Made by a program: the position numbers and the translations under genes. The notes under the pieces are model-generated. The model was given only the letters and a program-made list of their open reading frames with translations. It did no database searches and was not told the DNA's origin. Shown here one piece after another: positions 32,356 to 62,699 of a DNA stretch of 64,000 nt. Within the stretch, counting starts at the first letter, position 1. Each line of letters opens with the position of its first letter. Source of the stretch: Tolumonas osonensis (GTDB lineage: Bacteria > Pseudomonadota > Gammaproteobacteria > Enterobacterales > Aeromonadaceae). The stretch is taken from contig NZ_JACHGR010000002.1 of the NCBI RefSeq assembly GCF_014202415.1, forward strand, positions 1-64,000, given 5' to 3'.

Positions 32356-32376
32356 TTATTCCAGCCTCATCAGAAC

Positions 32377-34820: not shown

Positions 34821-34830
34821 GGCTTGCTCC

Positions 34831-35118: not shown

Positions 35119-35121
35119 GAT

Positions 35122-35622
35122 TTACTCCGGTCGGATCCATTGAATATGTCGCTGCGTCAGAAGGTCTGAGGCCAGCGGAGTTAACAGCGAACGCGGTGCG
35201 ATGAGCAGGATCCCGGATTTAAACCCGATGACATCGCTGTAGCCGATCACCGGTTTGGCACATAACCGGATGTCCTGCCCCAGATGATTACTGAATGTCA
35301 GTGGCAAACGGTTCAGGCCGGTGACAGGTAACGCTTTCAGTAACTGGCTATGCAGACTGATGTGGATCTGCACGCCATAGGACATGGCATCCAGCGTTGT
35401 TGCGACTGCCGGGTGCTGAACATCGTTCAGAGCCAACTGCGCGAGAAAGCCCGGATCTGGTTGTTGAATGTGCAGATGGGCATGGCGAACATACACAGAA
35501 GGTGACAGCCCTTTCACTAAATCTGACTGGCGAGTAGCAAATACGGCCCGTTCACGTTGCTGTAGCAGGGCAACGATCGCGTTGACGATTTGCTCAGTTT
35601 GATCCGGAGAAAGGACTGTCAT
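35122..35622 (-). CDS. pduM: PduM, microcompartment structural protein
   Basis: 166 residues (Salmonella 163). Needed in Salmonella for normal shell assembly; biochemical role unknown. MTVLSPDQTEQIVNAIVALL looks like an amphipathic targeting helix, followed by SPSVYVRHAHLHI and a conserved end LLTPLASDLL. Position between pduL and pduN supports the name as strongly as the sequence does. Confidence 0.88.
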   Translation of the reverse strand: MTVLSPDQTEQIVNAIVALLQQRERAVFATRQSDLVKGLSPSVYVRHAHLHIQQPDPGFLAQLALNDVQHPAVATTLDAMSYGVQIHISLHSQLLKALPVTGLNRLPLTFSNHLGQDIRLCAKPVIGYSDVIGFKSGILLIAPRSLLTPLASDLLTQRHIQWIRPE

Positions 35623-35625
35623 GGT

Positions 35626-36258
35626 CTATTCCTTCACCAGCACGGCATAGGCTGCCGGGTTATCGATATCTGCCGCGTTCGCTTCATCGGTGTCGATGTG
35701 CATTTCCAGCGTCATCTCCGGAGATACCCGGATCGCGACATCGTCGAAAATGGTTTTTCGGCTGCTGCCATGAATCGCGACTTTGACCGAGTCACCGTGT
35801 TGTACGCCGTAGATCAGCGCATCCAGCGGCGACATATGGATGTGACGCAGCGCGACAATGACGCCCTGGTTCAGCGTGATTTCGCCGAACGGACTGATCA
35901 GTTTGATGCCCGGTGTATCACCTAATTTGCCGGATAAACGCAGCGGGGCAGTGACGCCTAATGTGCGGGCATCAGTGCGTGAAACTTCGATTTGGCTCTG
36001 ACTGCGTAGCGGTCCGAGGATGCGCACGTTTTTCAGATGGCCTTTCGGACCGGCAATGGTAACTGTTTGCTCGGCGGCGTATTGTCCCGGCTGCTTCAGT
36101 TCTTTTTTGACTGCTAACGGTTGATCAGGAAACAAGACCTGATAGTCCGCCTGAGATAAATGCACATGACGATTGGAGACGCCCAGCGGGATCGGGCGCT
36201 GACGCAGTTCATCCAGGACATGGCAGACGGCAGTTCTGACGAGTTCTTTTTCCATCAT
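35626..36258 (-). CDS. pduL: Phosphate propanoyltransferase PduL
   Basis: 210 residues from the ATG at 36258, equal to Salmonella PduL; an adjacent ATG at 36255 is also possible. Its start overlaps the pduK stop (ATGA). Converts propionyl-CoA + Pi to propionyl-phosphate + CoA. The N-terminal helix (MMEKELVRTAVCHVLDELRQ) is the encapsulation peptide. The zinc site uses IPLGVSNRHVHLS and ALRHIHMSPLDA histidines. Not related to Pta. Confidence 0.95.
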   Translation of the reverse strand: MMEKELVRTAVCHVLDELRQRPIPLGVSNRHVHLSQADYQVLFPDQPLAVKKELKQPGQYAAEQTVTIAGPKGHLKNVRILGPLRSQSQIEVSRTDARTLGVTAPLRLSGKLGDTPGIKLISPFGEITLNQGVIVALRHIHMSPLDALIYGVQHGDSVKVAIHGSSRKTIFDDVAIRVSPEMTLEMHIDTDEANAADIDNPAAYAVLVKE

Positions 36259-36803
36259 GCGTGACCTCTTGCATGAATACATTTATTCCGTGGTTCGCCT
36301 TTCTGGCGCGGGCAAAGCGGGTCCTGACAAAGATTGCAGGTCGCCTGGCCTTCATAAGGAGCGGCTTCCGGTTCGGTCTCCTGCACCCCGGACTCACTGA
36401 CTTCAGAAGCGGATTCAACCACTTCGGTGACAGTAAATGATGTCGCAGGCTGCACTTCAGCTTCTGGTTCAGATGCTGTAACGGGTTCAGCTACGGCTGC
36501 TGGTTCAGCCTGTGGTTGTTTGACAGGCGTAGTCGGTACCACCTGTTGCAGTAACTGTTCATTCGGACGGGCTAACAGTGCTTTGGCGACCAGTCCGCTA
36601 TGTTTTTCAGCCAAAGCCGCGCCAGTACTCAGCGCAGCATTGACGGCAGCGACATCACCGGTGATTTTGATTGTCATCCAACCACCGCCTTTGGCTGTAT
36701 CAATGCCAACCAACGTGACGGCCGCGGACTTCACCATGGCATCGGCGGTGTTGATCGCTAATGCCAGGCCGCTGACTTCTAATAATCCGAGTGATATTTT
36801 CAC
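36255..36803 (-). CDS. pduK: PduK, BMC shell protein with Cys-rich tail
   Basis: 182 residues from a GTG at 36803 (MKISLGLLEVSGLALAINTA): AGAGG lies eight bases before it, while the GTG at 36812 is too close to that site. One BMC domain (~1-90), then a low-complexity P/E/V-rich linker and a C-terminal motif CNLCQDPLCPRQKGEPRNKC with four cysteines that could hold an iron-sulfur cluster. Minor hexameric shell protein. The stop overlaps pduL. Confidence 0.93.
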   Translation of the reverse strand: MKISLGLLEVSGLALAINTADAMVKSAAVTLVGIDTAKGGGWMTIKITGDVAAVNAALSTGAALAEKHSGLVAKALLARPNEQLLQQVVPTTPVKQPQAEPAAVAEPVTASEPEAEVQPATSFTVTEVVESASEVSESGVQETEPEAAPYEGQATCNLCQDPLCPRQKGEPRNKCIHARGHA

Positions 36804-36836
36804 GTTGCACACCTCTTACTGGCTTGGCTCTTGGAG

Positions 36837-37112
36837 TTACAGGGATTTCGGTAAAATCGTTTCCACGTCGCTGTGCGGGCGAGGGATCACATGGCAGGAC
36901 TGAACCTGACCCACGTTCTTCGCTGCGGCTGAACCGGCTTCTACCGCCGCTTTGACCGCACCGACATCACCCCGCACCATCACGGTGACCAGACCCGAAC
37001 CGATTTTTTCGTATCCAACCAACTGTACGTTGGCCGATTTGACCATGGCATCAGCGGCTTCAATAGCAGCCACCAACCCCTTGGTTTCGACTAGTCCTAA
37101 CGCGTTGTTCAT
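36837..37112 (-). CDS. pduJ: PduJ, major BMC shell hexamer
   Basis: 91 residues from the ATG at 37112, with AGGAGA before it. A single BMC domain: [40 protein letters not shown]. Nearly identical in sequence to the product of the gene at 43199-43483 (PduA), as in Salmonella. Forms flat hexameric tiles with a central pore for substrates. Confidence 0.96.
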
Positions 37113-37160
37113 TGCTTGCTCTCCTGTTTTGCTTGTTTCGCTTTGTGTTAACACATTGAA

Positions 37161-37517
37161 TTACAATGATTTAAATGGTAATCCTTTCACCAGCCGGGCA
37201 GCGTTGTTGCCCAGACTCCGCAAGACATCCGTTTTTTGCTGCAGCGGCTGTGATAAACGGAATAACGGTGCTTCCGGCCGTAGATTTTTAAAGTGCACCA
37301 CGATGTCATTGCGGGTGCAGGCCATACCGACCAGTAACGGGGAACGTTGCGCAGCGTCATAGGCCGCAGTGACTACGTCGCCGGACTCAGTCGGTTGCAG
37401 CAGAAACGGAATGCCTTCTTCTTCGATACCGTAAAACACCTGCTGCCAGAGTCCGGCATCACAGCCGGCCAGCAGGTGTACTAAAACGACGGGCAGCTCT
37501 TCATGCAGTGATTTCAT
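37161..37517 (-). CDS. pduH: Diol dehydratase reactivase, small subunit PduH
   Basis: 118 residues (Salmonella 116). DdrB-type beta subunit that swaps damaged cobalamin out of PduCDE together with PduG. PVVLVHLLAGCDAGLWQQVF, GIEEEGIPFLLQ and LGNNAARLVKGLPF are typical. Its start overlaps the pduG stop by 4 bp, which suggests coupled translation of the two subunits. Confidence 0.94.
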   Translation of the reverse strand: MKSLHEELPVVLVHLLAGCDAGLWQQVFYGIEEEGIPFLLQPTESGDVVTAAYDAAQRSPLLVGMACTRNDIVVHFKNLRPEAPLFRLSQPLQQKTDVLRSLGNNAARLVKGLPFKSL

Positions 37518-39340
37518 GCTGGCAGCTCCCGCAGATAAGAGAGGATCAACCCGGTCGCTACGGCGTTACGCGGGCCTTCACAACCGCGGATATTGCCGCG
37601 GCCTGCTACCAGGTTGTAATGCGACAGGGCATCGGTCACCAGTTGCGGCACTTCAAAATCAAGGGCGGAACCACCGACCAGCACCACGAACGGGATATCG
37701 CGGATATTGCCGGTCGGGCTGACAAACTGCAGCGCGCGCAACGAGTTGGTGACAAATACGCGTTCTTTGGCGGAACGGCGAATATTGCGTACTTTTTCCA
37801 GCGCAAATTCGCCGGGCAGCGGGATAAATTTGCCTTCTTTCACCACCACCACGCGCGCGAATACGGCGGCGGGCAGGGGGCTATCAAAAAATTGCACTGT
37901 GCCGTCTTCATGGCGGATGTGGAACAGGCTTTCTACTTTCGCCAGTGGATATTTCTTGATGTCTTCCGCCAGATAGCGATCTTCCAGCCCCAGTTCGGAG
38001 GCGATGATCATGGTCACCATATCGCCGGCACCCGCGAGATGCGTGGCAACAATTTCCCCCTGCGGATTGATGATCGACGCATCGGTGGAACCGGCGCCCA
38101 GATCGAGAATCGCCATCGGTTTGGTGGTGCCGGGGGTGGTGAGGGCACCCAAAATCGCGGCTTCGGCTTCGGCGCCGCCGATCTGCACATTGATATGCAG
38201 TGTGTTATGGATCTCTTCGGCAATACGCGCCATCTGCAGATGATCGGATTTCACCATCGACGCGATGCCAACTGCCTGTTCCAGTGAGAATTCGCCGGCC
38301 AGACCGCCCTGAACATTGACCGGGACAAAGGTATCGACGGCCAGCAGATCCTGAATAAAGATCTCGCCGGAAGGCTTGTTGGTCAGCTCCGCCATAGTCT
38401 GACGCACGTTTTCCAACATACCGCCGATATTGGAGCCGGATTCGCCGGTGACGTTATCCAGCTGACGGCAGGTTTTTACCGCGAGCATGATTTTTTCGCT
38501 GCCTGATGCAACATCGACAGTCGTGGTGCGGCCATTGGCAAACAGCATCAGATGACCGGCCGGAATGGTACGGGCTTTGACATCGCCTTTCGGTGTTTTC
38601 ACCACCACGGCAGAGCGGGTGCCGATCAGTGCGCGGGCCACCGGGACGATGTTGCGGGTTTCATCGGCAGATAAATTGAAGACAGTGGCAATGCCGTAGG
38701 GGTTGGACAGGGTACTGATCACCTGTCCGGGCATGGCGACTTCAACGGCGGCCAGCATACCCATTGGAATTCGGTCGATGTAACTGACTTCATCGACAAT
38801 CGGAATTGGTTTTTCGAGACGGTTATTGACCAGAACACCGTCATCGCGTTGCAGGATCGCGGCTTCAATCTGATAACCGGCTTTCACTGCTGCGTTGATC
38901 ATGCCGGCAATATCAGCAAAATCGAGCTGAGCCGGTGCAATAATAATGTAAGGTTCACTATTACTGCGGGAAAGCAGTTCATCGAAGGTAATGGTGATGC
39001 CGACACCTAACCCTAAACCGCCAGGGGTTTTCGGGTTGTGCCCAATCATGGTGGATTCGGTGATGATGGTTTCTGTAATAGTTTCCATCGCCACATCACC
39101 GATCACCGGGGTGGCCTCGTTAATGCGGATCAGACTCAGATCGCTTAACGAGAGCCCCGCGTTTTCCACCAGCAGGTTCAGTGCCTTGTAGATACCGAAC
39201 AAATTGCGTTTGGTGCCCTTGATACCTGTGGTCTCCGTCAATGCACTGGCGATAAAGCGAAAATCACCGTTGGATTCCCGCCGTCCCAATGCCACTTCGG
39301 TTGAAGAGTTACCGATATCAACGCCTACAATGTATTCCAT
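37514..39340 (-). CDS. pduG: Diol dehydratase reactivase, large subunit PduG
   Basis: 608 residues from the ATG at 39340 (MEYIVGVDIGNSSTEVALG) with AAGGTG before it; the frame extends 25 codons into the palindromic repeat upstream, which is not part of the normal protein. DdrA-type ATPase with an Hsp70/actin-like fold: VDIGNSSTEVA (phosphate 1), LDLGAGSTDASI (phosphate 2), VLVGGSALDFEVP (adenosine). With PduH it releases inactive B12 from the dehydratase. Confidence 0.95.
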   Translation of the reverse strand: MEYIVGVDIGNSSTEVALGRRESNGDFRFIASALTETTGIKGTKRNLFGIYKALNLLVENAGLSLSDLSLIRINEATPVIGDVAMETITETIITESTMIGHNPKTPGGLGLGVGITITFDELLSRSNSEPYIIIAPAQLDFADIAGMINAAVKAGYQIEAAILQRDDGVLVNNRLEKPIPIVDEVSYIDRIPMGMLAAVEVAMPGQVISTLSNPYGIATVFNLSADETRNIVPVARALIGTRSAVVVKTPKGDVKARTIPAGHLMLFANGRTTTVDVASGSEKIMLAVKTCRQLDNVTGESGSNIGGMLENVRQTMAELTNKPSGEIFIQDLLAVDTFVPVNVQGGLAGEFSLEQAVGIASMVKSDHLQMARIAEEIHNTLHINVQIGGAEAEAAILGALTTPGTTKPMAILDLGAGSTDASIINPQGEIVATHLAGAGDMVTMIIASELGLEDRYLAEDIKKYPLAKVESLFHIRHEDGTVQFFDSPLPAAVFARVVVVKEGKFIPLPGEFALEKVRNIRRSAKERVFVTNSLRALQFVSPTGNIRDIPFVVLVGGSALDFEVPQLVTDALSHYNLVAGRGNIRGCEGPRNAVATGLILSYLRELPA

Positions 39341-39352
39341 CACCTTACCCCG

Positions 39353-39486
39353 ATTCGTTATCCCCGTCCCACTTGAAGTTGCAGCGGCGTTGGCTGCGTT
39401 CTTCGCCCCAATCACATAGTTTATCTATGCTCATGGGGTCTCATTCACTTGCCGCCTACCTGCAATTTCAATTGGTTAGGGTATAA
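39353..39486. repeat. Intergenic palindromic repeat (ERIC-like)
   Basis: About 130 bp forming one long imperfect palindrome in the pduE-pduG gap. Ends: CACTTGAAGTTGCAGCGGCG on the left and CTGCAATTTCAATTGGTTAG on the right, complementary over TGAA-TTGCAG. Centre: CCCCA...CATAG-TTTAT-CTATG...TGGGG. Inner blocks GCGTTGGCTGCGTTC and CACTTGCCGCCTACCTGCAA resemble the 125-bp palindromic elements common between genes in Yersinia, Serratia and Pectobacterium. I know that family from memory, so its membership here is an inference. It would fold into a large RNA hairpin inside the pdu transcript. Confidence 0.75.
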
Positions 39487-39501
39487 GCATGCTAAAGATA
39501 T

Positions 39502-40023
39502 TTAGTCATCGCCTTTGAGTTTCTTCCGCGACAGGTAGAGCTCGGCAGCTTCGCGCACGAATCCGGCACAGATTTTTGCGTTATATTTCTGTTCCAGTTC
39601 ACTGGCGATCGTCATCAACTCGTCTTTGGAAGAACGGTAAGGGCGCAGTGCGTTATAGATCTCCAGCACACGCTCATCCGGTACCGCGGTCAGTTCTGCT
39701 GCACGTTCAAAATTGAGCGCCAGCAGTTCACGACCCGCGCTGCGGGCAATGTCGGCCTGAATGCGTAAAATCTCAGGAGTGATACGCATATCCTGCGGTG
39801 CAACCTTGCCGTTCAGCACGTTGTCCAGCGTGATGTCTTCCAGTGTTTTGTTGGTTGCCGTTTTTACCCAGTCAGGATGTTTATTCGCTAATGGATAATC
39901 GTGCACCGTAGCACCGCTTTTCGAGGCCGCAGCTGGCGCTGAAACCACAGGTGACGCACCTTGCAGGCTGTTCATCTTGCTCAACACATCACGAACCATG
40001 GATTCAATAGCTTCTGAATTCAT
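39502..40023 (-). CDS. pduE: Propanediol dehydratase small subunit PduE
   Basis: 173 residues, the same as Salmonella PduE. Gamma subunit of the coenzyme B12-dependent diol dehydratase. N-terminal helix MNSEAIESMVRDVLSKMNSL is the encapsulation-like peptide; then LANKHPDWVKTATNKTLEDI and the C-terminal LYLSRKKLKGDD. Follows pduD by 14 bp. A palindromic repeat separates it from pduG. Confidence 0.95.
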   Translation of the reverse strand: MNSEAIESMVRDVLSKMNSLQGASPVVSAPAAASKSGATVHDYPLANKHPDWVKTATNKTLEDITLDNVLNGKVAPQDMRITPEILRIQADIARSAGRELLALNFERAAELTAVPDERVLEIYNALRPYRSSKDELMTIASELEQKYNAKICAGFVREAAELYLSRKKLKGDD

Positions 40024-40037
40024 TGTGTTTTCCTTTA

Positions 40038-40697
40038 TTAAAGTGCGATCTGTAATTCCTGCGCGTTCTTACCGATCACCACGTGTTTGGTTTCCTTGAT
40101 ATGCAGTACCGCTGATTTGGCCTGATATTTCGGACGCGCCATCTGATCGTTCAGTGTTGGCACGGGTTGTGGTGATTCACCCTTGGCATATTTCGCCGCG
40201 TTCTTGCCGATCTGGCGGTAGGTTTCCAGCGTGATCAGCGGTGCCTGCGGGAACAGCTCCAGGTTGGACAATGGCGGTAAACCACGTTGATGGATCACGG
40301 TGGTACCTTTGGACTGAATGCCAATCGAGATACCGGAACCGCTCAGACGGTTACCTTCCACCGCAACAAACGCGACGTCGGAAGATTTGAAACTGCGGAT
40401 CACCCGCGCTTTCAGACCTTCTTCTTCGATGCCGGCGATCACTTCGCGCAGAATGTTTTTATGCGGCACACCCACAATGTTGGTGGTCTGAGACAGACCG
40501 AAAGCAGGGCCGACAGCAATCACCACTTCATCGCGGCTGGTACCGGGTTTGGCTTCACCCACTTCTTTCAGAAAGCATTCACCGGAAACAGGCGCCGCAG
40601 CGGTTTGCTTAAAGGAGACGCTTTTGTCCTGTGTCTGCATGCCTTGCAGCACTTCTTCGATGATCTGACGTAATAGCTTTTCGTTAATATCAACCAT
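40038..40697 (-). CDS. pduD: Propanediol dehydratase medium subunit PduD
   Basis: 219 residues (Salmonella 224). Beta subunit binding cobalamin with PduC. N-terminal [20 protein letters not shown] is the encapsulation peptide. [20 protein letters not shown] and [20 protein letters not shown] are typical of the beta chain. 12 bp after pduC. Confidence 0.95.
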
Positions 40698-40709
40698 GAC
40701 ACGTCTTCC

Positions 40710-42374
40710 TTATCCCAATTCGTTAGGGTCAAGCGCATTCGGGATGTTTTTGATTTCTTCCCAGCGTTCGCCTTCCAGACGGTAACCTGTGCCCGGACCG
40801 GCATAGTCATTGACATCGTTCACCGCAGACAGCACCTGGTTGTCACCGACGATAATGGCGGAGGTATGCAGGTAGTCGCCGGAGATCTTGGCTTTCTGGA
40901 TGTTGAGCATGTCCTGCGCGACATCGGCAAAGCCGCCTTGCGCCAGCGCTTTCACTACTTCCAGACCGGTGCGGTTACGCTCAATGATTTCCTGCGCCGC
41001 TTTCAGATCTTCAACGATGTTGCGCTCCGGCATGTCTTTCGAGCCGTGTGCATAGGTTGCCGCTGTGACTTCTTCATCGGTGATCGCAGGTAAGCCCATA
41101 CCGGCAAACACTGCCTGCAGGGCGCGTGCTGCCTTGTTACGCACTGCAACCACGTCTTCTTCACGCACCGGACGCAGACCACCGTCTACTTTCAGGTCGC
41201 GCTGAATGACGTTGTAATCGTCAAAGTCTTCGGCATCTTCGTTGGAACCCGCGAACATGTTGTCGTAGTTCGGCACGGCGGAATAACCGGACGAAATGAA
41301 GTCAGTACCCGGCAGGAACTGCATCAGCAGACGTGCGGTACGACGCATATCGGAGTGGGTGAAGGTCTGGTCGTTACTGGACGCACATTCCAAATCGATG
41401 GAAGAGCAGATCAGGTTTTCAGCCAGCACGGCACGGATACCAGACGGCACGGCAGAAGGAACGCCGATGCAGCTGACAGAACCGTTTTGCAGACCCTGTA
41501 CACCCGCCGCTTTGGTGATGTAGATGCAACGTGCTTCCAGATACAGCATGGATTTGCCTTCGGCATAGCCCATCTGCACTTCAGAACCGGAGCCGGAGGT
41601 GAAACGCATTTTCAGACCGCGGGAAGCGTAAGAGGAAGCGAGGAAGCCTTTCGACCAAGGCGTATCGTCACCGTCGGTGAAGACAGGTTCAGTGCCGTAC
41701 ACAGAAATGGTTTCTGCGTAGCAGGTATGACCCAGCATCCCCAGTTTCAGTTCGGTGGCTTCTTCCAGCGAGCATTGGGTCAGTACGCCAGGGCGGCCAA
41801 CCTGTGAACCTACCAGCAGCGCGATGGCGTTGAATGGCGCGTAACGGGCTACCGCAACGGTAGTTTCCTGTTCGTCAAAACCACGGAAAGCACCTTCGGC
41901 TGCATCAGCAGCGATCTGCACCGGGTTATCACGCACGTTGGTGACGTGAGCCTGCTGGGATGGGGTGCGGCGGGCGCGCATTTTCTGCATCGCCATCATC
42001 ATTTCCACTACGTTCATGTGGGTCATGACTTCCACGATTTTGGCCGGCGTCATCGCGGTAGTGAGCGGGATGATGTCTTTGCGTGATACGTTCGGATCAC
42101 ACAGCATGTTCGCCAGTTTTTTGGAGTCCATGGCCATGACTTCTTCCGCACGTTTCAGATTGATACCGTAGCGGGCGATGAAATGGTCAATCAGATCAAA
42201 CTGGGCTTTGGGTTTGCTATCCAGCTCAACGACTTCACCATTCACGATCTTGATGGATGGTTTCGGGTCGTTCGGGCTTTCCATGGCGATGAAGCCTTCT
42301 TCGATCCACTCTTTGACAAAGCCGTCCTGGTTAACCGGACGTTTTGCCAGTGCCTCAAATCTTTTCGATCTCAT
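40710..42374 (-). CDS. pduC: Propanediol dehydratase large subunit PduC
   Basis: 554 residues, the exact Salmonella length. TIM-barrel alpha chain carrying the radical active site that turns 1,2-propanediol into propionaldehyde. MRSKRFEALAKRPVNQDGFV, EVMTHMNVVEMMMAMQKMRA, SGSGSEVQMGYAEGKSMLYL and SYASRGLKMRFTSG are typical. Glycerol can be an alternate substrate in this family. 21 bp after pduB. Confidence 0.97.
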   Translation of the reverse strand: MRSKRFEALAKRPVNQDGFVKEWIEEGFIAMESPNDPKPSIKIVNGEVVELDSKPKAQFDLIDHFIARYGINLKRAEEVMAMDSKKLANMLCDPNVSRKDIIPLTTAMTPAKIVEVMTHMNVVEMMMAMQKMRARRTPSQQAHVTNVRDNPVQIAADAAEGAFRGFDEQETTVAVARYAPFNAIALLVGSQVGRPGVLTQCSLEEATELKLGMLGHTCYAETISVYGTEPVFTDGDDTPWSKGFLASSYASRGLKMRFTSGSGSEVQMGYAEGKSMLYLEARCIYITKAAGVQGLQNGSVSCIGVPSAVPSGIRAVLAENLICSSIDLECASSNDQTFTHSDMRRTARLLMQFLPGTDFISSGYSAVPNYDNMFAGSNEDAEDFDDYNVIQRDLKVDGGLRPVREEDVVAVRNKAARALQAVFAGMGLPAITDEEVTAATYAHGSKDMPERNIVEDLKAAQEIIERNRTGLEVVKALAQGGFADVAQDMLNIQKAKISGDYLHTSAIIVGDNQVLSAVNDVNDYAGPGTGYRLEGERWEEIKNIPNALDPNELG

Positions 42375-42395
42375 GAAAGAACCTCACTCACGTGC

Positions 42396-43202
42396 TCAGA
42401 TGTAGGAAGGGCGGGTATTGGTCGGTTCATCACCCAGCGCGCCGAGTAAGGTCTTACCGATTTCACGGGCAGAAATCACTGCCTGACGTACCGCACCTGA
42501 ATCACCGGAGACGATCAGAATGACTTCGTTACTGAAGCTGGTGCCATGAGCCGGAGAGCTGTAAGCCACGACATCGACATTGGCGGATTTCACCGCGGTA
42601 TCGGCCATCAGCACACCGACAGAAGCGGGGGCTCCGACGATCACGCCGCAGGCTTTGCCGAGTGGGGCTCCGAAGGCTTTTTCCAGCGCATAACTGGCAC
42701 GGGCACTGTATTGCAGTTCGATATGGCCCGCGTCGTTGGCATAGACATCACCAAAGGTGCGATCCAGTTCTTTCAGGGCGACTTCCACCGCGCGTTTCAC
42801 GTCAGACACGTCTTCGCCACCGAAAACGATCAGAGAACCGTGACCGGCGCCGCCTTTGGTGTCGCGTGGCAGTTCGATGCTGACCACTTCGGTATTGGTA
42901 CCTTTGACTGCTTCATCGGCCGCCATGATATGAGGGCCAGCACCGGTGCGGGCACCGAGAATACCGATGGAGCGATAACGTTTTTCCAGTTTCATTGCGT
43001 CGAGCAGTTGTTGATCAACGTTTGCGATAACCAGTCCGATGGTGTCGCCGATTGCGGTGCCCACGAATTCAGTTAAGCTGCAGGATTTTTCAGCCATTGT
43101 TGTGCCTCGTTGTGTTGTTTGCGGAGTCTTGGCCGCAGTTTGATCGCTGACTTTCGCCATCACCTGGGCCATGATTTGTTCGACCAGGTTGTCCTGACTC
43201 AT
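42396..43202 (-). CDS. pduB: PduB/PduB', tandem-BMC shell trimer
   Basis: 268 residues, two BMC domains. As in Salmonella, a second in-frame start lies at codon 36 (ATG at 43097, [20 protein letters not shown]) and gives the shorter PduB'; a CGAGG precedes it. The extra N-terminus of the long form ([19 protein letters not shown]) is the segment that links shell to cargo in Salmonella. Overlaps the pduA stop by 4 bp (ATGA). Confidence 0.95.
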
Positions 43203-52559: not shown

Positions 52560-53321
52560 TTAATAAAGCGATGTACCGTGGTCGACATATAGAATTTGCC
52601 CGGTGATCGCTTTTGACGCATCGCTGGCAAAAAACAGAATGGCTTCCGCTTGGTCTTCTGCCGATGCCGTAGGTAACGTCACGTCGATATGTTTAGCACA
52701 TAAACTCGCAAATTCACCGTGGAAGGTTTTTATTTGTTCCGGTGTATTCAGGGGGGTGGGGGTTGGCCCCGGAGCGACGGCGTTACAGCGGATTGCGGTC
52801 GAGGCGTATTGTAAGGCGATGTTTTTGGTCATGGCATTGACGGCTGATTTTGCGGCACTATAGGCGATGCCTGCAACACCCTGACTGCCGATGGACGATA
52901 TATTCACGATTGAGCCGGCACCACGGTGTTCCATATATTTCAGTGCGTATTTGGTCATGTAATAGACAGAATACTGGTCTATTTTACACACGGTGTCATA
53001 CCAGGTTTCGCTGCATTCCGTAATGGGCATGTGTTTGTCTGCAATGCCCGCATTGTTTACCAACACATCGATCCGGTCATATTTCTTGATCGTTTCGGCA
53101 ATGACTTTTTCACACTCCTGCGCAACCGACACGTCGGCCTGAATGGCAATAATTTCGCCTCCTTTGGCGGTAATTTCATCGACAACTTTCTGGTTTTCCT
53201 CGGCTCTTCGGCCGGAAATAATAACTTTAGCGCCTTCGCGGCAGAATAATTCAGCGGTTGCCTTTCCGATGCCTGAGTTACCCCCAGTGATAATGATTAC
53301 TTTATTTTCTAATCTTTTCAT
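52560..53321 (-). CDS. Short-chain dehydrogenase/reductase (SDR)
   Basis: 253 residues from the ATG at 53321 with GGAG before it. Classical SDR: cofactor loop TGGNSGIGKATAEL, NNAG at ~88, and catalytic Ser-Tyr-Lys in NISSIGSQGVAGIAYSAAKSA. SGRRAEEN after strand 2 has a basic pair that suggests NADP(H), though D is absent, so this is only likely. Divergent from the LysR gene. Given the cluster, it could oxidise a hydroxy-keto acid or reduce a phenolic ring such as phloroglucinol. Its function is inferred only from context. Confidence 0.85.
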   Translation of the reverse strand: MKRLENKVIIITGGNSGIGKATAELFCREGAKVIISGRRAEENQKVVDEITAKGGEIIAIQADVSVAQECEKVIAETIKKYDRIDVLVNNAGIADKHMPITECSETWYDTVCKIDQYSVYYMTKYALKYMEHRGAGSIVNISSIGSQGVAGIAYSAAKSAVNAMTKNIALQYASTAIRCNAVAPGPTPTPLNTPEQIKTFHGEFASLCAKHIDVTLPTASAEDQAEAILFFASDASKAITGQILYVDHGTSLY

Positions 53322-53519: not shown

Positions 53520-54479
53520 ATGAAGCTACAGTTGTTATATGAGTTCGTGACGCTCTGTGAAATGCTGAATTTCACGAAGGCAGCCCAGAGGATGAACATT
53601 ACACAGCCTGTATTAAGTCGTCATATGAAAACCCTGGAAGAGCATTTTGGTGCCGAGTTATTTAAACGGGATACGCATGTCGTTGACTTGACCAGCAGTG
53701 GTCATCTCCTGCTGGATGAAGCCAGAAAGATCATTCTGCAATATGAAAACTCGCTCGATGTGATGAGCAAATTTACGGGTAAGAGTAAGAAAAAGCTGAA
53801 GATTGCCTTTTTGGGCGAGGCGGTTCAGCAGGTGCTGGTCGACTTTTTAGCTGAATTTAATGTGGATTTTCCGGAGGTCGTCATTGATTGCCGCGATAGT
53901 GAGCTGGATGAGGCGTTAAGTTATCTGGAAGATCTGAGCTATGATTTTGGCTTTTTAATCCGGCCTAATTTTGTCGAAAACGAGTTATTTGAAGATTTAT
54001 ATATCCAATCGGACACCATCGGTGTCGCGGTAAATAAACGTCATCCGCTGGCGCAACAAAAAGTCGTTTCATTAAATGAAGTTGAAAACTGGCCTATCAT
54101 TCGTGTCGATCCAGGCAGCTTTGTTTTATCGCACCAATTCAGTACCGAGTTTCTCGACCGCTACCAAATTCCTTATCGTGTAGAAAAAGAATATCCGAAC
54201 CTGAAAACCTGTTGTTTTAATCTTGAATTTAATCATCGTGCCGTGCTGTTAATGCCAAGACACCGGAGTTATCTGTTGAGTGAAAATTGTGTTCTCTTAG
54301 ATATTAAAGAAGATAAATATTGGTTTGATCTGGAACTGGTCTGGGACGCTAAAAACAGAAATCCTTGTGTGCCATTATTTCTGCGGCAATTTAGAAAATT
54401 TTTACAACACAGAAATGCTAATTATGCTGTCTCATTCAAATCAAAAGACAGTATAACCAGCACTCTGGATTATGCTTAA
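53520..54479 (+). CDS. LysR-family transcription regulator
   Basis: 319 residues. N-terminal HTH ([40 protein letters not shown]) and a C-terminal effector domain ([20 protein letters not shown]). Divergent from the SDR gene and converging on a thiolase gene (4-bp overlap of ends), so it sits inside the catabolic cluster and is its probable regulator. The ligand is unknown. Confidence 0.9.
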
Positions 54480-55654
54480 ATTCTTTCTACGATCATCGCG
54501 ACGCCCTGACCGCCACCGACACACAATGTGGCCAGACCCAGCGTTTTGTTTTTCGCACTCAGGGCATGTAACAGCGTCACGAGAATGCGAGTGCCGGAAG
54601 CGCCGATTGGATGGCCCAGTGCAATGGCGCCGCCGTTGATGTTTGTTTTTTCCAAATCGAACTTGAGCTCACGCCCAACCGCGATAAATTGCGAGGCAAA
54701 CGCTTCATTGGCTTCGATCAGATCAATATCCGCCATGGATAAACCGGCTCGTTTCAAGGCAATTTGTGTTGCTGGAACCGGGCCGATGCCCATCAAGGCC
54801 GGATCGACACCGCTGGTTGCAAAGCTGCGAATTCTGGCAAGTATTGGAACCGCCAAGGCTTTTGCCCGTTCTTCCGTCATGATCACAAGTGCCGCAGCAC
54901 CATCGTTGATGCCGGATGCATTCCCGGCGGTGACGGTACCATCTTCAGAAAAAGCAGGATTCAGCTTGGCCAATTGCGCCATTGATGCATCCTGACGCAC
55001 AAACTCATCCGTCGAAAAGACCGAATCGCCTTTTTTGCTGCGCAGGGTAACGGGCAAAATTTCTTTTTCAAACGCATGTGATTGAATCGCAGCCTGGGCC
55101 CGTTGCTGAGAGAGCAGGGCTATTTCATCTTGCTCACTTCTGCTGATACCGTATTTCTGCGCCACATTTTCTGCCGTAATGCCCATGTGATAATGGTTTA
55201 CGGCACAAAACAAACCGTCATGAATCAGACAGTCCTTCACGTTTTGCTCGCCCATACGGTAGCCCCAACGCGCTTTATCCAATACATAAGGCGCAGCAGA
55301 CATATTTTCCATGCCACCCGCCAGCACAATATTGGCATTACCGGCGGCAATACTTTGCGCGGAGTAAATAATACTTTGCAGTCCGGAGCCACACACCATA
55401 TTGACGGTGGTGGCCGGTGTGGAATCAGGAATGCTGGCTTTCAGTAATGCCTGCCGTGCCGGATTCTGGCCCAGACCGGCTTGTAAAACGTTGCCGAAAT
55501 TGACTTCGTTAATATCGTCTGCGGATATTTGCGCACGACGGATGGCTTCTTGCATCACCAAAGCACCTAGTTCAGTGGCTGGAATACTGCCAAGACTGCC
55601 ACCGAATTTCCCGATTGCAGTACGAACAGCACTCGTAATCACAAGTGATGACAT
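54476..55654 (-). CDS. Acetyl-CoA C-acetyltransferase (thiolase 2)
   Basis: 392 residues, AtoB/PhaA type biosynthetic-degradative thiolase. Acylation cysteine in [12 protein letters not shown] (~88), [17 protein letters not shown], the histidine in [17 protein letters not shown] and the second cysteine in [13 protein letters not shown]. Splits acetoacetyl-CoA into two acetyl-CoA. Last gene of the minus-strand catabolic run. Its end overlaps the LysR end by 4 bp. Confidence 0.94.
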
Positions 55655-55747: not shown

Positions 55748-56731
55748 TCAGCGAAGCGGCATGCTGATACCCAGGTGGATGAATGACACATCCGCGTCGT
55801 TTCTGGCCCGCAGAGAAACCAGCAGGCGACTGGTTAACGAAAATGAACCGAAGTCATAGCCGAGGAGAGGGCCGGCAAGAATGTGTTCGCTCTTGTTGCC
55901 AGAACCAGATAACCCATCCACAGCGGCGACCGAGACACCGTTCACCTCATCATCCGTAATTTGCTTGGTGTAATTGCCGATCAAACCCACGGTGAAGTGA
56001 TCGATGCGCCGGGTCGCGCTGGCATCGAGGTAATAAGTCATACCGGATTGATAATCCGTGGTGTGATTGGTCGTGTTGTAGTCGAGCATATTATTGAGCG
56101 TTAATGTCCATTGCTCACCCATGCGCGTCACGGCGAAAGCCGGCTCGAATGTCCAGTAATCATTGCCGATGGCTTTTGCGTTTTTCACATTACGACCGGC
56201 TGCCGCGTTGTAGTCGTAACTGAAATCACCGTTATCCGCGTAGATGGTCAGCCCGGTCGAGATGAAATAACCATTCTTGAGATCCCAGGAAAGGATCACC
56301 GGTGTGATCGCGGTATTGACTATGCCCTGACTATCGACTGTGGTTGAGCCGTCCGTCGTCGTGAATTCGGTGCTGGCCCATTTATAGGGTTGGGCAATGG
56401 CCGCCGCATAACGCGCACCGAACAGTTCTTTATCGGTTACCCAGGTGAGTGCGATGACACTACTGACATTGGATGCTTCGATCTGTTTGCCATCCGGTGT
56501 AGTTGCTGTGTCTCCTTCATTATTTTTAAGTTTGCCGCCTTCATAATCGGCATCCATCATGAGATAGAAACCAGGGGGTGGCAGCGCCCCGGCCGGCGCC
56601 CCGGTAGTTGCGCCGGGCTGGAGGGGACTGATCCCCTCCGCAGCATAAACCTGTGGTGCCAGACAACAGCAAGCCAATGCCACAAGGCTGTACGACGGTG
56701 TTTTACATACTGTTTTGATAAATGAAGCCAT
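55748..56731 (-). CDS. Outer-membrane channel, Phenol_MetA_deg/SphA family
   Basis: 327 residues with a signal peptide (cleavage near QVYA-AEG). LPPPGFYLMMDADYEGGKLK is typical of the SphA-like/MetA-pathway phenol degradation family, followed by alternating hydrophobic strands of a beta-barrel and a C-terminal aromatic-hydrophobic strand (VSFIHLGISMPLR). Such proteins accompany catabolic operons for aromatic or hydrophobic compounds and are thought to let them through the outer membrane. Located between the MFS gene and a thiolase gene. Confidence 0.82.
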   Translation of the reverse strand: MASFIKTVCKTPSYSLVALACCCLAPQVYAAEGISPLQPGATTGAPAGALPPPGFYLMMDADYEGGKLKNNEGDTATTPDGKQIEASNVSSVIALTWVTDKELFGARYAAAIAQPYKWASTEFTTTDGSTTVDSQGIVNTAITPVILSWDLKNGYFISTGLTIYADNGDFSYDYNAAAGRNVKNAKAIGNDYWTFEPAFAVTRMGEQWTLTLNNMLDYNTTNHTTDYQSGMTYYLDASATRRIDHFTVGLIGNYTKQITDDEVNGVSVAAVDGLSGSGNKSEHILAGPLLGYDFGSFSLTSRLLVSLRARNDADVSFIHLGISMPLR

Positions 56732-56752: not shown

Positions 56753-58057
56753 TTAAAGGTTGTGTTCATCGACAGGCGTGACATCTGTGATGAGAAACAG
56801 GAGGAGGGTGACGACACCGACCGCTGCCAATAAGAGATAGGCGCCGGTATATCCGCCCAGATAGGCCAATCCGAAAGCGAGGATTGAGAATGAGAAGCAG
56901 CGGATAATGGATTGGATCGGATGGACAATACCAATCGCACGGATATAGAGACGACGGGGGAATTTGGTAGCAATCAGTGCGGTACTTAAGTTCGTCGCGC
57001 CTGGCAGGCTGAAGCCAATCATCAGCAGCGAGATCCAGAGCATATAGACGTTATCTGCAAACAGATTGACCACGATGGCGACGATCCACCAGACGGTGTA
57101 AGTCATGATGGCTTTTTTGACGCCGATCCGCTGATTGAGCCAACCCCAGCCGAAGGCGCCAAAGGTTCCGAACAGCGCAGAAGCAGACATGTAGAAGATC
57201 GCGGTTTCCAGAGAGTAACCGGATGACATCAGGCGGGGTACAATCTGACTTACCACACCAACCAGCATGACGTAGATGGCGCCGGTCGCGATCCCCATCA
57301 GCCACACATCTTTCATGCGTAATATTTGTGCTACGGTCAGCGGGCATTGATAGGCGTCATGTTGTTTCTGTCGTTCAGCTAACTGCGCCGGCGTGATCCG
57401 TTCGTTGTCGGGCGCTAATCCGATATCTTCCGGTTTGTTATGAATAAACAGCGTGGTGACGATTGCCAGGACAAACATCATGCTGGCGATCCCCCAGAAC
57501 CCGTGCTGAACGCCCATAATGGCAAATGAAGCGGCCAGAGCAGGGACGAAAAACGCACTGGAGAAGGTTTGACCCACGGTGCACCAGCCCAGCGCCAGAC
57601 CGGCTTTTCTGACGAACCAGCTAGTGACGATGGAGGTACCGCCGACATACGCAAAGCCGGTACCGAAAAAGCAGACACCGGCGAACAGAAGGGAGAAGCT
57701 GAGGAGCGAGCTGGCATAGCCGAGCAGGCCGAAACATAATCCACACGCAAGCAGACAGAGGATGATGTTGAACTTCGCGCCTTTTTTCTCGCACAACCAG
57801 GCGGTAACTGGCCCGGCAGGAATGGAAGCCCATGACGCCGGGGTTGCCAGCGCCAGGAGCGTGTTGTAGTCAAGGTTATACGTTTTGGACAATGCGGGAA
57901 GCGTAACATTCAGGCCGTGTGTGATGGCACCTGCTGCCACCCAGAACATGACGGCCTGGAATGCAATGATTGACCAGCCTCTGACGCCGAATCCGGTCTT
58001 CTGGGTTTCGAAGTCAGCATATTCCGCTGTTTTATCGAGCGTAGCGTTGTTTGTCAT
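56753..58057 (-). CDS. MFS transporter of the catabolic cluster
   Basis: 434 residues, twelve hydrophobic segments. N-terminal cytoplasmic leader of ~25 residues, then GWSIIAFQAVMFWVAAGAIT. The YVGGTSIVTSWFVRKAGLAL stretch looks like the OFA/monocarboxylate-type MFS branch. It probably brings the growth substrate (an organic acid or cyclic ketone) across the inner membrane. It is 21 bp upstream of the outer-membrane channel gene. 145 bp separate it from the CoA-transferase genes, so an extra promoter may lie there. Confidence 0.85.
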   Translation of the reverse strand: MTNNATLDKTAEYADFETQKTGFGVRGWSIIAFQAVMFWVAAGAITHGLNVTLPALSKTYNLDYNTLLALATPASWASIPAGPVTAWLCEKKGAKFNIILCLLACGLCFGLLGYASSLLSFSLLFAGVCFFGTGFAYVGGTSIVTSWFVRKAGLALGWCTVGQTFSSAFFVPALAASFAIMGVQHGFWGIASMMFVLAIVTTLFIHNKPEDIGLAPDNERITPAQLAERQKQHDAYQCPLTVAQILRMKDVWLMGIATGAIYVMLVGVVSQIVPRLMSSGYSLETAIFYMSASALFGTFGAFGWGWLNQRIGVKKAIMTYTVWWIVAIVVNLFADNVYMLWISLLMIGFSLPGATNLSTALIATKFPRRLYIRAIGIVHPIQSIIRCFSFSILAFGLAYLGGYTGAYLLLAAVGVVTLLLFLITDVTPVDEHNL

Positions 58058-58202: not shown

Positions 58203-58847
58203 TTAAACCGGGATTGTGGCCAGATGATCAGCAACAATTAACCGTGGTTCGATCTGCTTCTGAATGTCTTCGGGCGTGAGTCCTTCTAACAGGGCAACCA
58301 GCACCAGACCGTCACGTGTCACGTCGATCACGCACTGTTCGGTGACGATATGGTCAACGCAGGCTTTTCCGGTCAAAGGGAAATCGCAGGACTTCACAAT
58401 CTTGGGTTTGCCCTGTTTGCTCGTTAACTCCATCGCGATAATGACTTTGCGGGCACCGTTGACGAGATCCATGGCGCCGCCCATGCCGAAGACGCGTCCG
58501 GGCTGAGCCCAGTTGGCAAGATCGCCATTTTCTGCGACCTGCAGTGCGCCCAGCACCGTGGCGGCCAGCTTGCCGGAGCGAACCAAACCAAAGGATTCGG
58601 CGCTATCAAAGGCGCTGGCACCGGGAACCGGGATGAAGCGCATCGCGGTAGCATTCGAAAATCCTTCCACCGCCAACATGCCATCACACAGGGAACCGAC
58701 ACCGACCAGCCCGTTTTCGGTATGAAACATCACACCGGGGGCCGCGTAATCGCCGCAAAGACTGGGAATACCAATGCCGAGATTGACCACATCGCCGGGT
58801 GAAAAATAAGCGGCGGCTTGTTTTGCAATACGATCACGCGCGTTCAT
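58203..58847 (-). CDS. 3-oxoacid CoA-transferase, subunit B (AtoA-like)
   Basis: 214 residues from the ATG at 58847, behind GAGGAG. Family I CoA-transferase beta chain: the catalytic glutamate lies in MFHTENGLVGVG, with ANWAQPGRVFGMGGAMDLVN downstream. Its start lies inside the end of subunit A (14-bp overlap). Together they move CoA from succinyl- or acetyl-CoA to acetoacetate or a related acid. Confidence 0.93.
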   Translation of the reverse strand: MNARDRIAKQAAAYFSPGDVVNLGIGIPSLCGDYAAPGVMFHTENGLVGVGSLCDGMLAVEGFSNATAMRFIPVPGASAFDSAESFGLVRSGKLAATVLGALQVAENGDLANWAQPGRVFGMGGAMDLVNGARKVIIAMELTSKQGKPKIVKSCDFPLTGKACVDHIVTEQCVIDVTRDGLVLVALLEGLTPEDIQKQIEPRLIVADHLATIPV

Positions 58848-59508
58848 GATCTGACTCCTCTGCTGCCAGTACGAAATCGACATATGCACCGGGGGTGACG
58901 ATGCTATCAATCGAGAGCTCGCCAATGTCGACATGCATATCTGCATCAACAAGGGTGATGGCACTGGCTTTAGCGACCAGCGGATTGAAATTTTGCATGG
59001 TGCCGTGATAGGTCAGGTTACCCAGCGGATCGCTGGTTCTGGCCCGTACCAGGCCGATGTCAGCACGTAACGCGGTTTCCAGCAGGTATTCTTCGTTATC
59101 AACCGAAATGACCTGTTTGCCTTTCTCAACCACGGTTCCCAGACCGGTTTTGGTCAAAACGCCGCCCAGACCTGAACCGCCACAGCGGATCCGCTCGGCG
59201 AGGCTGCCTTGCGGCACCAGTTCGAGATCGATTTTCCCTTCTTCAACCAGTTGGATCGTGTCGGTATTCCGGCCGATGTGTGATGCAATCAGCTTATCGA
59301 CAACGCCGTTGCGGATAAGGCGTCCGATGGTAAGATCGGCATCACCTGAGTCATTTGAAATGAGCGTCAGATGACGTGCGCCGCTTTCAAGGATGCAATC
59401 AATGAGCTTGTTCGGAACGCCGTGATTGGCAAATCCGCCGCACATGATGGTTTGTCCATCTTTAAACAGACGGACGATCTGTTCTTTGCTGGTGTATTTA
59501 TCTGCCAT
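58834..59508 (-). CDS. 3-oxoacid CoA-transferase, subunit A (AtoD-like)
   Basis: 224 residues. Glycine-rich CoA site GQTIMCGGFANHGVPNKLID near the start, PQGSLAERIRCGGSGLGGVL in the middle. With subunit B activates the beta-keto acid formed by the BKACE enzyme or upstream steps. 2 bp after thiolase 1; same operon. Confidence 0.93.
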   Translation of the reverse strand: MADKYTSKEQIVRLFKDGQTIMCGGFANHGVPNKLIDCILESGARHLTLISNDSGDADLTIGRLIRNGVVDKLIASHIGRNTDTIQLVEEGKIDLELVPQGSLAERIRCGGSGLGGVLTKTGLGTVVEKGKQVISVDNEEYLLETALRADIGLVRARTSDPLGNLTYHGTMQNFNPLVAKASAITLVDADMHVDIGELSIDSIVTPGAYVDFVLAAEESDHERA

Positions 59509-61703: not shown

Positions 61704-62699
61704 TTATTTAATTTCGTCTTCAAACTGGCCGCCGCCAATGCGTGGGCGAACTACTTTTCCTTGTTTTTCAGCTGCTTTAACCAATTCAGCTTCTGCGTGT
61801 GCATCTTGCCAGAAACTAATTTCGTGCGGAGAGTGCTCGGTTGCGGTGACATACATTTCTGTCGAGAACGCATTGCGCAATTCATTGGCGATGTCTTCTT
61901 TCCATGGTTTACGCAGTTGTTGAACGGTTAAACGACGGGTAACTCGGGTACCGGTGCGGATAATCAGTTCTGCGATTTCCTGGGCACGCGCATAGGCTGC
62001 TTCGGTGTCTTCACAGATTTCATTGACCATCCCTAAGTCCAGTGCCTTACGCGCAGTGATGATTTCACCGGTTAATTCAGCATAGGCATAACGTTTACGG
62101 CCCATCAGTTCACGCCATGCGATTTGGATACCGTCACCGGGAACCATATTGGTTCTGAAGTGCATTTCAGTGGTCCATGCATCTTCGGTACATAGAGTAA
62201 TATCGCTGAACAGCACTAAATCTGTATGGAATGCAGCACCGTTCCAAACACCGATGGTAGGAACCTGAATATCAAATACCTGGCCTTCAATATCTTTGGT
62301 GCCGTCTAAGTATTGATACTCGTACATACGCCAGGCGATATCAGGCGCTGAACCAAATTCAGTGGCTGGTTGCCATTCACCTTTTTTATCAACACGGCCG
62401 ATGCCTTTGAATAAATCCTTGCCGGTGCCACCTAAAATGATGACTTCGTTTTCCGGATCGCGACCTGCCCAGTCAAAGAAGTAGTGAAGGCCCTGGTGAG
62501 CTTGTGCACACCATTGCAGGCTGTCGCCGTTCGTGTGCAGACGGGCTTCCAAAATGCCGTTTTTACGAGTCATGGTGAGAAAATCTTTACATTTCTCTTT
62601 GTATTCTTCAAAAGGCATATGAGGGATAGTGCCCAGTTCTTCGTGAGACATTGATTTTCTTGTGCCGGCATCGTTTTCATAATTAGCTTTAAGAACCAT
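61704..62699 (-). CDS. Crotonase-family beta-diketone hydrolase (6-oxocamphor hydrolase-like)
   Basis: 331 residues, crotonase fold with a ~45-residue N-terminal extension and a long C-terminus. Against my memory of 6-oxocamphor hydrolase, Trp63 and His68 (SLQWCAQAH, same spacing as Trp40/His45), His158 (WNGAAFHTD), His180 (EMHFRTN) and Asp189 (VPGDGIQIAW) match that enzyme's Trp40, His45, His122, His145 and Asp154. The usual CoA-hydratase glutamates are not in the expected places. It would hydrolyse a ring C-C bond between two carbonyls (retro-Claisen). First gene of the catabolic run. A broader enoyl-CoA hydratase label is the safe alternative. Confidence 0.8.
   Translation of the reverse strand: MVLKANYENDAGTRKSMSHEELGTIPHMPFEEYKEKCKDFLTMTRKNGILEARLHTNGDSLQWCAQAHQGLHYFFDWAGRDPENEVIILGGTGKDLFKGIGRVDKKGEWQPATEFGSAPDIAWRMYEYQYLDGTKDIEGQVFDIQVPTIGVWNGAAFHTDLVLFSDITLCTEDAWTTEMHFRTNMVPGDGIQIAWRELMGRKRYAYAELTGEIITARKALDLGMVNEICEDTEAAYARAQEIAELIIRTGTRVTRRLTVQQLRKPWKEDIANELRNAFSTEMYVTATEHSPHEISFWQDAHAEAELVKAAEKQGKVVRPRIGGGQFEDEIK

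Follow-up and report, generated by a model that had tools for sequence, protein, structure and literature searches.

A crotonase of Tolumonas osonensis with a 6-oxocamphor hydrolase-type active site, a candidate ring opener associated with a beta-keto acid cleavage enzyme

Introduction

The contig NZ_JACHGR010000002.1 of Tolumonas osonensis (assembly GCF_014202415.1), of which the first 64,000 nucleotides were analyzed (hereafter the window), carries a crotonase gene, here named CRO, that raises a twofold question: does it encode one more enoyl-CoA hydratase or a C-C bond hydrolase akin to 6-oxocamphor hydrolase (OCH) and the Anabaena beta-diketone hydrolase (ABDH), and, in the latter case, which ring would be opened? 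A preliminary description, made from the sequence alone, had read an OCH-type active site in the protein and had warned that a routine pipeline would call it enoyl-CoA hydratase. The analysis below supports the first of these statements by alignment and by a predicted model, and leads us to regard CRO as very probably a CoA-independent C-C hydrolase that would open a cyclic beta-diketone by a retro-Claisen reaction.

Active site and predicted fold of CRO

The gene is real as first described, forming an open frame of 331 residues whose ATG is preceded by a ribosome-site-like AGAAGG. In phmmer searches of the PDB the best matches are OCH (1o8u, E 2.4e-30, and its H122A mutant 1szo, E 1.6e-29) and ABDH (2j5g, E 3.5e-27), the next one, the hydratase-annotated 7mcm, being far behind (E 6.1e-12). 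A profile of 47 CRO relatives retrieves the structures in the same order, with E values of 1.5e-62 for OCH, 7.2e-57 for ABDH and then 3.5e-31. In Pfam, CRO matches the general ECH_1 entry alone, and of the NCBIfam matches listed (25 of 40) none attains the cut-off of its model; for these two reasons the concern about mislabelling is a fair one.

HMMER alignments place Trp63, His68, His158, His180 and Asp189 in the OCH columns that the preliminary description had in mind, and reveal a sixth match, Glu281, with a Glu near the OCH C-terminus. The OCH residues are, in the numbering of that enzyme, W40, H45, H122, H145, D154 and E244 (H122 also appears in the title of 1szo). The catalytic residues of ABDH, D153, H144, E243 and H43 (PMC3584854), correspond to D189, H180, E281 and H68 of CRO. 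To assess conservation, CRO was aligned with the proteins from 27 loci of the close clade described below, which numbers 28 (the partial L040 being left out), and with 19 distant rows, of which 18 come from the 52 distant loci and one is the additional crotonase of locus L025. All six residues are invariant in the 28 aligned close-clade rows. Among the distant rows, H158, H180 and D189 are found in 19/19 and H68 in 18/19, W63 and E281 in 10/19 each, with Gln in place of the latter in 8.

Neither catalytic glutamate of the hydratases, Glu144 and Glu164 in the rat enzyme, is present in CRO, their positions being occupied by Asp160 and His180. The outcome named beforehand as contrary to the C-C hydrolase reading, hydratase glutamates without the His/Asp pair, is thus the opposite of what is observed, since His180 stands at the Glu164 position and the pair is there. 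Not every column is equally informative: the Glu144 position fails to discriminate because Glu also occurs there in 17/19 distant rows, and D189 alone is not diagnostic because 7mcm has PGDG at that place too.

The structural overlay suggested in the preliminary description points the same way. The AlphaFold model of CRO (pLDDT 90.7, pTM 0.91) comes closest to OCH (Z 33.8, 1.4 A over 246 residues). ABDH is second (Z 32.2, 1.6 A over 244 residues), and only then come the hydratases, of which the best-matching annotated structure is 3rrv (Z 29.5, 2.0 A over 246 residues). Foldseek ranks 1-12 are all OCH or ABDH chains. In the ranking by Z score, the chains below these two enzymes are annotated as hydratases and isomerases, labels that can be wrong, as is argued for 3q1t (PMC3584854). 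That CRO could be an ordinary enoyl-CoA hydratase/isomerase of beta-oxidation, as its ECH_1 match and the adjoining thiolases and CoA transferase might suggest, is therefore very improbable: the Glu164 position is His180 in 28/28 clade rows, OCH and ABDH outrank the hydratases both in sequence and in structure, and no acyl-CoA or hydroxyacyl-CoA dehydrogenase is found among the ten window proteins scanned. We rejected this identity on H180, fold and sequence rank.

CRO thus shares with OCH (1o8u, 1szo) the crotonase fold and the W/H/H/H/D/E set, and with ABDH (alr4455; 2j5g, 2j5s) the catalytic residues H43, H144, D153 and E243, ABDH differing from it by a shorter chain, a Phe at the Trp63 position and an identity of about 31%. 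Compared with OCH, to which it is 29-32% identical in structural alignments, CRO has 37-42 extra residues at the C-terminus, in agreement with the approximately 40 first described. The N-terminal extension, first put at 45 residues, comes down to about 22, because the structural alignment begins at CRO residue 27, equivalent to OCH residue 5. CRO also differs from OCH by its conservation of 75-95% across phyla and by neighbours (BKACE, thiolases, CoA transferase, MFS, porin) that are not camphor genes. Given the low identity, it is OCH-like in its active site, yet not orthologous.

The operon in Tolumonas

CRO is the first gene of a minus-strand operon (Table 1) that contains a beta-keto acid cleavage enzyme (BKACE), two thiolases (THL1 and THL2) and both subunits of a CoA transferase. 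Going downstream from CRO, the spacing is 103 bases to BKACE, 41 to THL1 and 2 to CoA-transferase subunit A, which overlaps subunit B by 14; gaps of 145, 21 and 93 precede MFS, the Phenol_MetA_deg porin and THL2. On its upstream side, CRO is separated by 573 bases from an unrelated DUF3833 gene. Another species of this genus (L010), whose CRO is 96% identical, keeps the gene order. No camphor-degradation genes occur among the CRO neighbours in the window; camphor degradation was therefore rejected, and the operon suggests that CRO acts on some other compound. Elsewhere in the window (30000-43200, minus strand), a run of genes resembles by eye a propanediol-utilisation-type microcompartment operon with diol dehydratase subunits.

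Table 1. Genes of the CRO region and codons of the putative active site (window positions)
Feature	Position	Strand	Basis or remark
CRO, first gene of operon, putative C-C hydrolase, 331 aa	61704..62699	(-)	Open frame, homology, fold
Trp63 codon	62511..62513	(-)	OCH Trp40 position
His68 codon	62496..62498	(-)	OCH His45 / ABDH His43
His158 codon	62226..62228	(-)	OCH His122 position
His180 codon	62160..62162	(-)	OCH His145 / ABDH His144; in place of hydratase Glu164
Asp189 codon	62133..62135	(-)	OCH Asp154 / ABDH Asp153
Glu281 codon	61857..61859	(-)	OCH Glu244 / ABDH Glu243; new relative to preliminary description
BKACE (DUF849), 292 aa	60722..61600	(-)	Pfam; Val17 at Kce Glu14 / triacetate-lyase Trp16 position
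THL1, divergent thiolase, 389 aa	59511..60680	(-)	Pfam, NCBIfam
3-oxoacid/acetate CoA-transferase subunit A	58834..59508	(-)	Pfam, NCBIfam
3-oxoacid CoA-transferase subunit B	58203..58847	(-)	Start is the ATG overlapping subunit A; listed frame longer
MFS transporter	56753..58057	(-)	Pfam
Porin-like protein, Phenol_MetA_deg family	55748..56731	(-)	Pfam
THL2, acetyl-CoA C-acetyltransferase-like thiolase	54476..55654	(-)	Pfam, NCBIfam
LysR-type regulator	53520..54479	(+)	Opposite strand; Pfam
SDR (short-chain dehydrogenase)	52560..53321	(-)	Pathway membership uncertain; start chosen by comparison with L010

Distribution and conserved gene context

From a contig scan for CRO relatives, the best 80 of 104 related loci were taken. 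In 28 of them the protein is 75-95% identical to CRO (the L040 match spanning residues 126-331 only), and after a gap the other 52 follow at 41% or less. The clade occurs in gammaproteobacteria (Tolumonas, enterobacteria), alphaproteobacteria, deltaproteobacteria, spirochaetes, actinobacteria, a Chloroflexi bin and a bin titled only Proteobacteria; several members are contigs of metagenome-assembled genomes (MAGs), for which binning errors are possible, and the distribution is a lower bound because the scan relied on two peptide patterns. CRO was found in 3/75 genomes of the family sample, all of the window's genus, and only in its own genome in a class-wide sample of 274 genomes (E 1e-40). 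Six of 398 genomes of the phylum sample, its own included, have a match at E 1e-15, the best other one at 35% identity, and all 39 matching plasmid records are below 60% identity.

For the gene context, 51 of the 52 distant loci served as controls, the mean locus being 16.5 kb in the clade and 17.5 kb in the controls. The locus left out, L069 of Enterobacter sp. EA-1, has the same operon, with stop codons in the crotonase stretch that may reflect poor assembly or decay. With queries from the window, BKACE is found in 22/28 clade loci versus 2/51 controls, THL1 and THL2 each in 22/28 versus 0/51 (the two queries partly match the same genes), CoA-transferase subunits A and B in 19/28 and 18/28, each versus 1/51, the LysR regulator in 16/28 versus 2/51, MFS in 14/28 versus 0/51 and the porin in 5/28 versus 0/51. 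BKACE is the next same-strand gene downstream for 12/29 clade crotonase genes and lies directly upstream for 1/29; in the others it is more distant or falls beyond the locus stretch. The SDR is not enriched (7/28 versus 10/51), nor is an OYE-type reductase (5/28 versus 4/51), which speaks against either as a pathway member.

Some loci deserve separate mention. In L032, from a spirochaete bin, there are two crotonases of the clade, one at 6339 and one at 10001 (74-75% and 77%), and the same 21-kb stretch contains two 4-hydroxybutyryl-CoA dehydratase-like genes and a 4HBT_3-type thioesterase. In L036, a putative cyclase (PF04199, L036:15886-16665) is located between a flavoenzyme and an MFS/BKACE pair, and two unrelated families of ring openers may act together in this clade-crotonase locus. 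A XylR-type gene beside CRO in L034 was not counted as a clue to aromatic sensing because it comes after genes read by eye as a toluene-monooxygenase cluster. Among the distant relatives, five loci from at least three named marine genera or bins (L058, L062, L077, L078, L085) combine OCH-like crotonases of 35-39% identity with TfD-like dehydrogenases (36-45%) and with DPGC-like cyclase matches (DPGC is introduced below; 27-35%, in two pieces at each locus), a neighbourhood that may belong to a different pathway for cyclic diketones. In loci of Paenibacillus, Lacrimispora and related Firmicutes (L059-L061, L063, L065-L067, L070-L076, L079, L082-L084), OCH-like crotonases occur as neighbouring pairs, both members having 35-43% identity to the query; the pair may form a C-C hydrolase of two subunits or one that works in two steps.

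Proposed reaction and pathway

BKACEs convert a beta-keto acid and acetyl-CoA into acetoacetate and an acyl-CoA. Hydrolysis of a six-membered cyclic 1,3-diketone gives a delta-keto acid, which is a beta-keto acid too only if a third ring carbonyl is present at position 5 or a carboxylate between the ketones. As BKACE needs a beta-keto acid and the keto form of a phloroglucinol-type ring supplies one, we propose that CRO releases a 3,5-dioxo acid. Delivery of the product to BKACE is probable, and a phloroglucinol-type ring has, in our judgement, an even chance of being the substrate. Quinate, shikimate and gallate were dropped on paper because their ring-opened products could not be drawn as a beta-keto acid.

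In the proposed reaction, His180 and Asp189 would activate a water molecule that attacks one ring ketone, the ring C-C bond would break and the resulting enolate would be protonated, His158, Trp63, His68 and Glu281 presumably binding and polarising the substrate (roles taken over from OCH and ABDH). The keto tautomer of a 1,3,5-trioxygenated ring would in this way yield the 3,5-dioxo acid. BKACE would then move its acyl part to CoA with the aid of acetyl-CoA, giving acetoacetate and a 3-oxoacyl-CoA; THL1 would cleave the latter, the CoA transferase would activate acetoacetate and THL2 would cleave acetoacetyl-CoA, so that the end product of the whole route would be acetyl-CoA. Two thiolases are to be expected if the 3-oxoacyl-CoA is a compound other than acetoacetyl-CoA. 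Acetoacetate as end product is also suggested by L025, one of the loci without BKACE. Behind its clade crotonase come another crotonase of the OCH type, two other genes and an acetoacetate-CoA ligase (864.6 bits against a cut-off of 520.9), an arrangement that would fit hydrolysis of the linear beta-diketone in place of its transfer to BKACE.

The proposed route resembles the published phloroglucinol pathway of Clostridium scatologenes (PGR-DPGC-TfD-TAL, where PGR is phloroglucinol reductase, DPGC dihydrophloroglucinol cyclohydrolase and TAL triacetate acetoacetate-lyase), whose tail combines TAL, itself a BKACE, with a thiolase and a CoA transferase and whose ring opener DPGC is Mn-dependent, related to isatin hydrolase and not a crotonase (PMC10470551). 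In both, a retro-Claisen ring opening is followed by BKACE, thiolase and CoA transferase. The CRO operon is otherwise unlike that pathway: with queries from DPGC clusters, neither DPGC nor TfD homologues are found in the 28 clade loci (0/28 each, versus 5/51 and 7/51 control loci), and its BKACE differs at the Trp16 position. The window BKACE belongs to PF05853 (326.6 bits, cut-off 24.8) and is a clear homologue of Kce (E 3.3e-59), from which it differs by Val17 in place of Glu14; its scores miss the cut-offs of the NCBIfam models of Kce (300 of 382), 3-oxoadipate (200.6 of 350) and 3,5-dioxohexanoate (193 of 430) enzymes. A change of Glu14 to Trp16 has been described in TAL (PMC10470551). Although the window BKACE shares 46-53% identity with three DPGC-cluster TALs, we do not regard it as a TAL, given Val17 at the Trp16 position. 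The NCBIfam score is no argument in this matter, since DPGC-cluster TALs miss the same 3,5-dioxohexanoate cut-off (238 and 215 of 430). In a BKACE tree, 18 rows (17 proteobacterial ones, including the window and L010, and the spirochaete L030) group at 100/98 apart from the TALs; as a whole the tree lends weak support, since the actinobacterial rows and the spirochaete L029 remain at an open fork and the TAL clade reaches 90/86.

Several observations weigh against the proposed pathway. The diketones opened by the enzymes known from the OCH branch are non-aromatic, and no crotonase is known to open an aromatic tautomer. The position that is Trp, Trp and Phe in the TALs is Val or Met in 22/24 rows of CRO-linked BKACEs, the window included; the two exceptions, L031 and L040, have BKACEs of a different subfamily (34-40%). 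No BKACE lies within the locus stretch in 6/28 cases (L025, L028, L032, L033, L034, L035) and it is not a direct same-strand neighbour in 16/29, so CRO and BKACE do not always form one operon. The SDR beside the Tolumonas operon has no explanation in the proposed route. Furthermore, DPGC itself occurs at 71% identity or more in 4/28 searched genomes (G732, G738 and G745 at 71%, G751 being the query source), the genome of L016 being outside this search, and partial matches of 44-46% occur in two further ones. In those four genomes the CRO operon is thus no simple replacement for the phloroglucinol pathway. Brenneria izbisi, for instance, has a complete-looking set MFS-CoA transferase-SDR-TfD-DPGC-thiolase-TAL (L109) on the same 298,067-nt contig as its CRO operon, the two lying far apart. 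This co-occurrence and the difference at the BKACE specificity position make it probable that the CRO operon acts on a separate and perhaps bulkier substrate. The explanation as a whole, an OCH/ABDH-branch hydrolase that would open a 1,3,5-trioxygenated ring ahead of a BKACE/thiolase tail, appears to us, on sequence evidence, the best one, with the case for it and against it about evenly balanced.

Candidate substrates

Free phloroglucinol is the simplest reading for Tolumonas, where DPGC has no match at E 1e-30 in genomes G000 and G347. CRO would open the trione tautomer directly to triacetate, a redox-neutral short cut, with BKACE as triacetate lyase; the genes at hand would suffice, with BKACE, thiolases and CoA transferase completing the route to acetyl-CoA, and the sub-threshold NCBIfam score is compatible with it, as the true TALs show. 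We consider this version unlikely nonetheless: BKACE lacks the Trp/Phe of the TALs and stands apart from them in the tree (though at the TAL support given above), DPGC is present in the four genomes already mentioned, and a second, divergent thiolase would be superfluous.

Somewhat less probable still is the opening of dihydrophloroglucinol supplied by the neighbouring SDR, CRO acting as a crotonase analogue of DPGC before an oxidation and BKACE. An SDR indeed adjoins the Tolumonas operon and occurs near CRO in L027, L029 and L032 at 67-75% identity, and ABDH, a crotonase, is reported as a beta-diketone hydrolase (PMC3584854). Yet the SDR shows no enrichment in clade loci and shares no more than 34% identity with its counterpart in the DPGC cluster of L110, assigned as PGR from its position; none of the 28 loci has a second dehydrogenase of the TfD type.

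A substituted rather than free phloroglucinol ring is suggested tentatively. In its most specific form, in our view possible but doubtful, the operon would degrade ring-opened flavan-3-ols (diarylpropan-2-ols from catechin or epicatechin), CRO opening their 2-substituted phloroglucinol A-ring as its keto tautomer. The CRO gene would then encode the ring opener in an anaerobic route of wide distribution that acts on the A-ring of catechin units from condensed tannins. The substituent in C-ring-opened catechin being CH2-CH(OH)-CH2-aryl, BKACE would give acetoacetate, and THL1 acetyl-CoA plus 4-hydroxy-5-arylvaleryl-CoA, the CoA form of the gut metabolite 4-hydroxy-5-arylvalerate / aryl-gamma-valerolactone. 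This carbon accounting arrives at the known end product 4-hydroxy-5-(3',4'-dihydroxyphenyl)valerate (PMC11887054). Breakdown of the A-ring is credited to Flavonifractor plautii in the passages available from that source, which name no enzyme for it.

Accessory genes of the clade loci are in part consistent with such a substrate. A homologue of 4-hydroxybutyryl-CoA dehydratase (1u8v, E 1.2e-84), which would suit gamma-hydroxy acids, occurs in 4/28 loci versus 0/51, spirochaete loci among them (in L031 at only 31%). Three of the four actinobacterial loci have a phosphotriesterase-family (lactonase-like) gene, a butyrate kinase and a phosphotransacylase (each 3/28 versus 0/51), although kinase and transacylase could equally serve butyrate. 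FAD_binding_2 flavoenzymes are present in 11/28 versus 0/51, the benzyl ether reductases of E. lenta presumably having the same fold. The one acting on catechin, Cber, is described only as flavin-dependent (PMC11887054). The Kosakonia locus has an FMN_bind/FAD_binding_2 enzyme together with NrfD and ApbE genes in the same 21 kb, and OprB porins (6/28) and NuoG-like proteins (2/28) are likewise seen in 0/51 controls. These queries were taken from clade loci (L016, L017, L020, L027, L029, L036) and are biased toward the clade; after removal of the query loci, 7/24 remain for FAD_binding_2 (p 0.00017), 5/27 for OprB, 3/27 for the dehydratase (p 0.038) and 2/27 for the phosphotriesterase family (p 0.12), p values that serve only as a guide because the loci are related to each other. 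The phloretin-hydrolase family is found in 4/27 CRO genomes versus 8/398 sampled genomes of the window's phylum (Fisher p 0.0045), two sets that differ in their mix of phyla. Val or Met in BKACE, compared with Trp or Phe in TAL, could admit a longer acyl group.

An ecological link is suggested by a condensed-tannin soil microcosm dominated by a Kosakonia MAG without known phenolic pathways (PMC8084988), the operon being present in Kosakonia sacchari (L021). The MAG of L033 is titled CTSoil_107 in the naming style of that study, which suggests, without showing, a connection; the name does not occur in its main text, where the products of C-ring fission are given as phloroglucinol and phenolic acids, with other taxa as their source (PMC8084988). 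Moreover, a search at E 1e-60 of the three Tolumonas genomes (one of them 70% complete) gives no match to the Enterobacterales flavoenzyme, and no such dehydratase, lactonase or kinase is among the frames listed for window 52-64 kb. It is because Tolumonas is without these accessories that we keep the flavan-3-ol reading at the low level stated.

Implications

The enzyme type of CRO is already known. In the open-access literature searched (most subscription journals lie outside it), neither a description of the pathway nor A-ring cleavage genes for catechins were found, crotonase and catechin not having been searched jointly; in the available text of PMC10470551, the word crotonase occurs solely in a reference title.

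If the proposed pathway is true, a crotonase would replace the Mn cyclohydrolase as ring opener of a phloroglucinol-type anaerobic pathway spanning proteobacteria, spirochaetes, actinobacteria and a Chloroflexi bin, and polyphenol ring cleavage would be added to a family that pipelines label enoyl-CoA hydratase. There would then also be genes to seek where tannins are degraded without oxygen, and A-ring cleavage of catechins would be directly testable with three purified enzymes. Should the flavan-3-ol reading hold, it would provide enzymes for a step without assigned genes in the literature searched and would give enterobacteria exposed to tannin a means of degrading it. Even with a different substrate, the BKACEs of this operon form a subgroup of their own, linked to a C-C hydrolase. 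The CRO gene set may serve distantly related bacteria in the oxygen-free breakdown of plant polyphenol rings.

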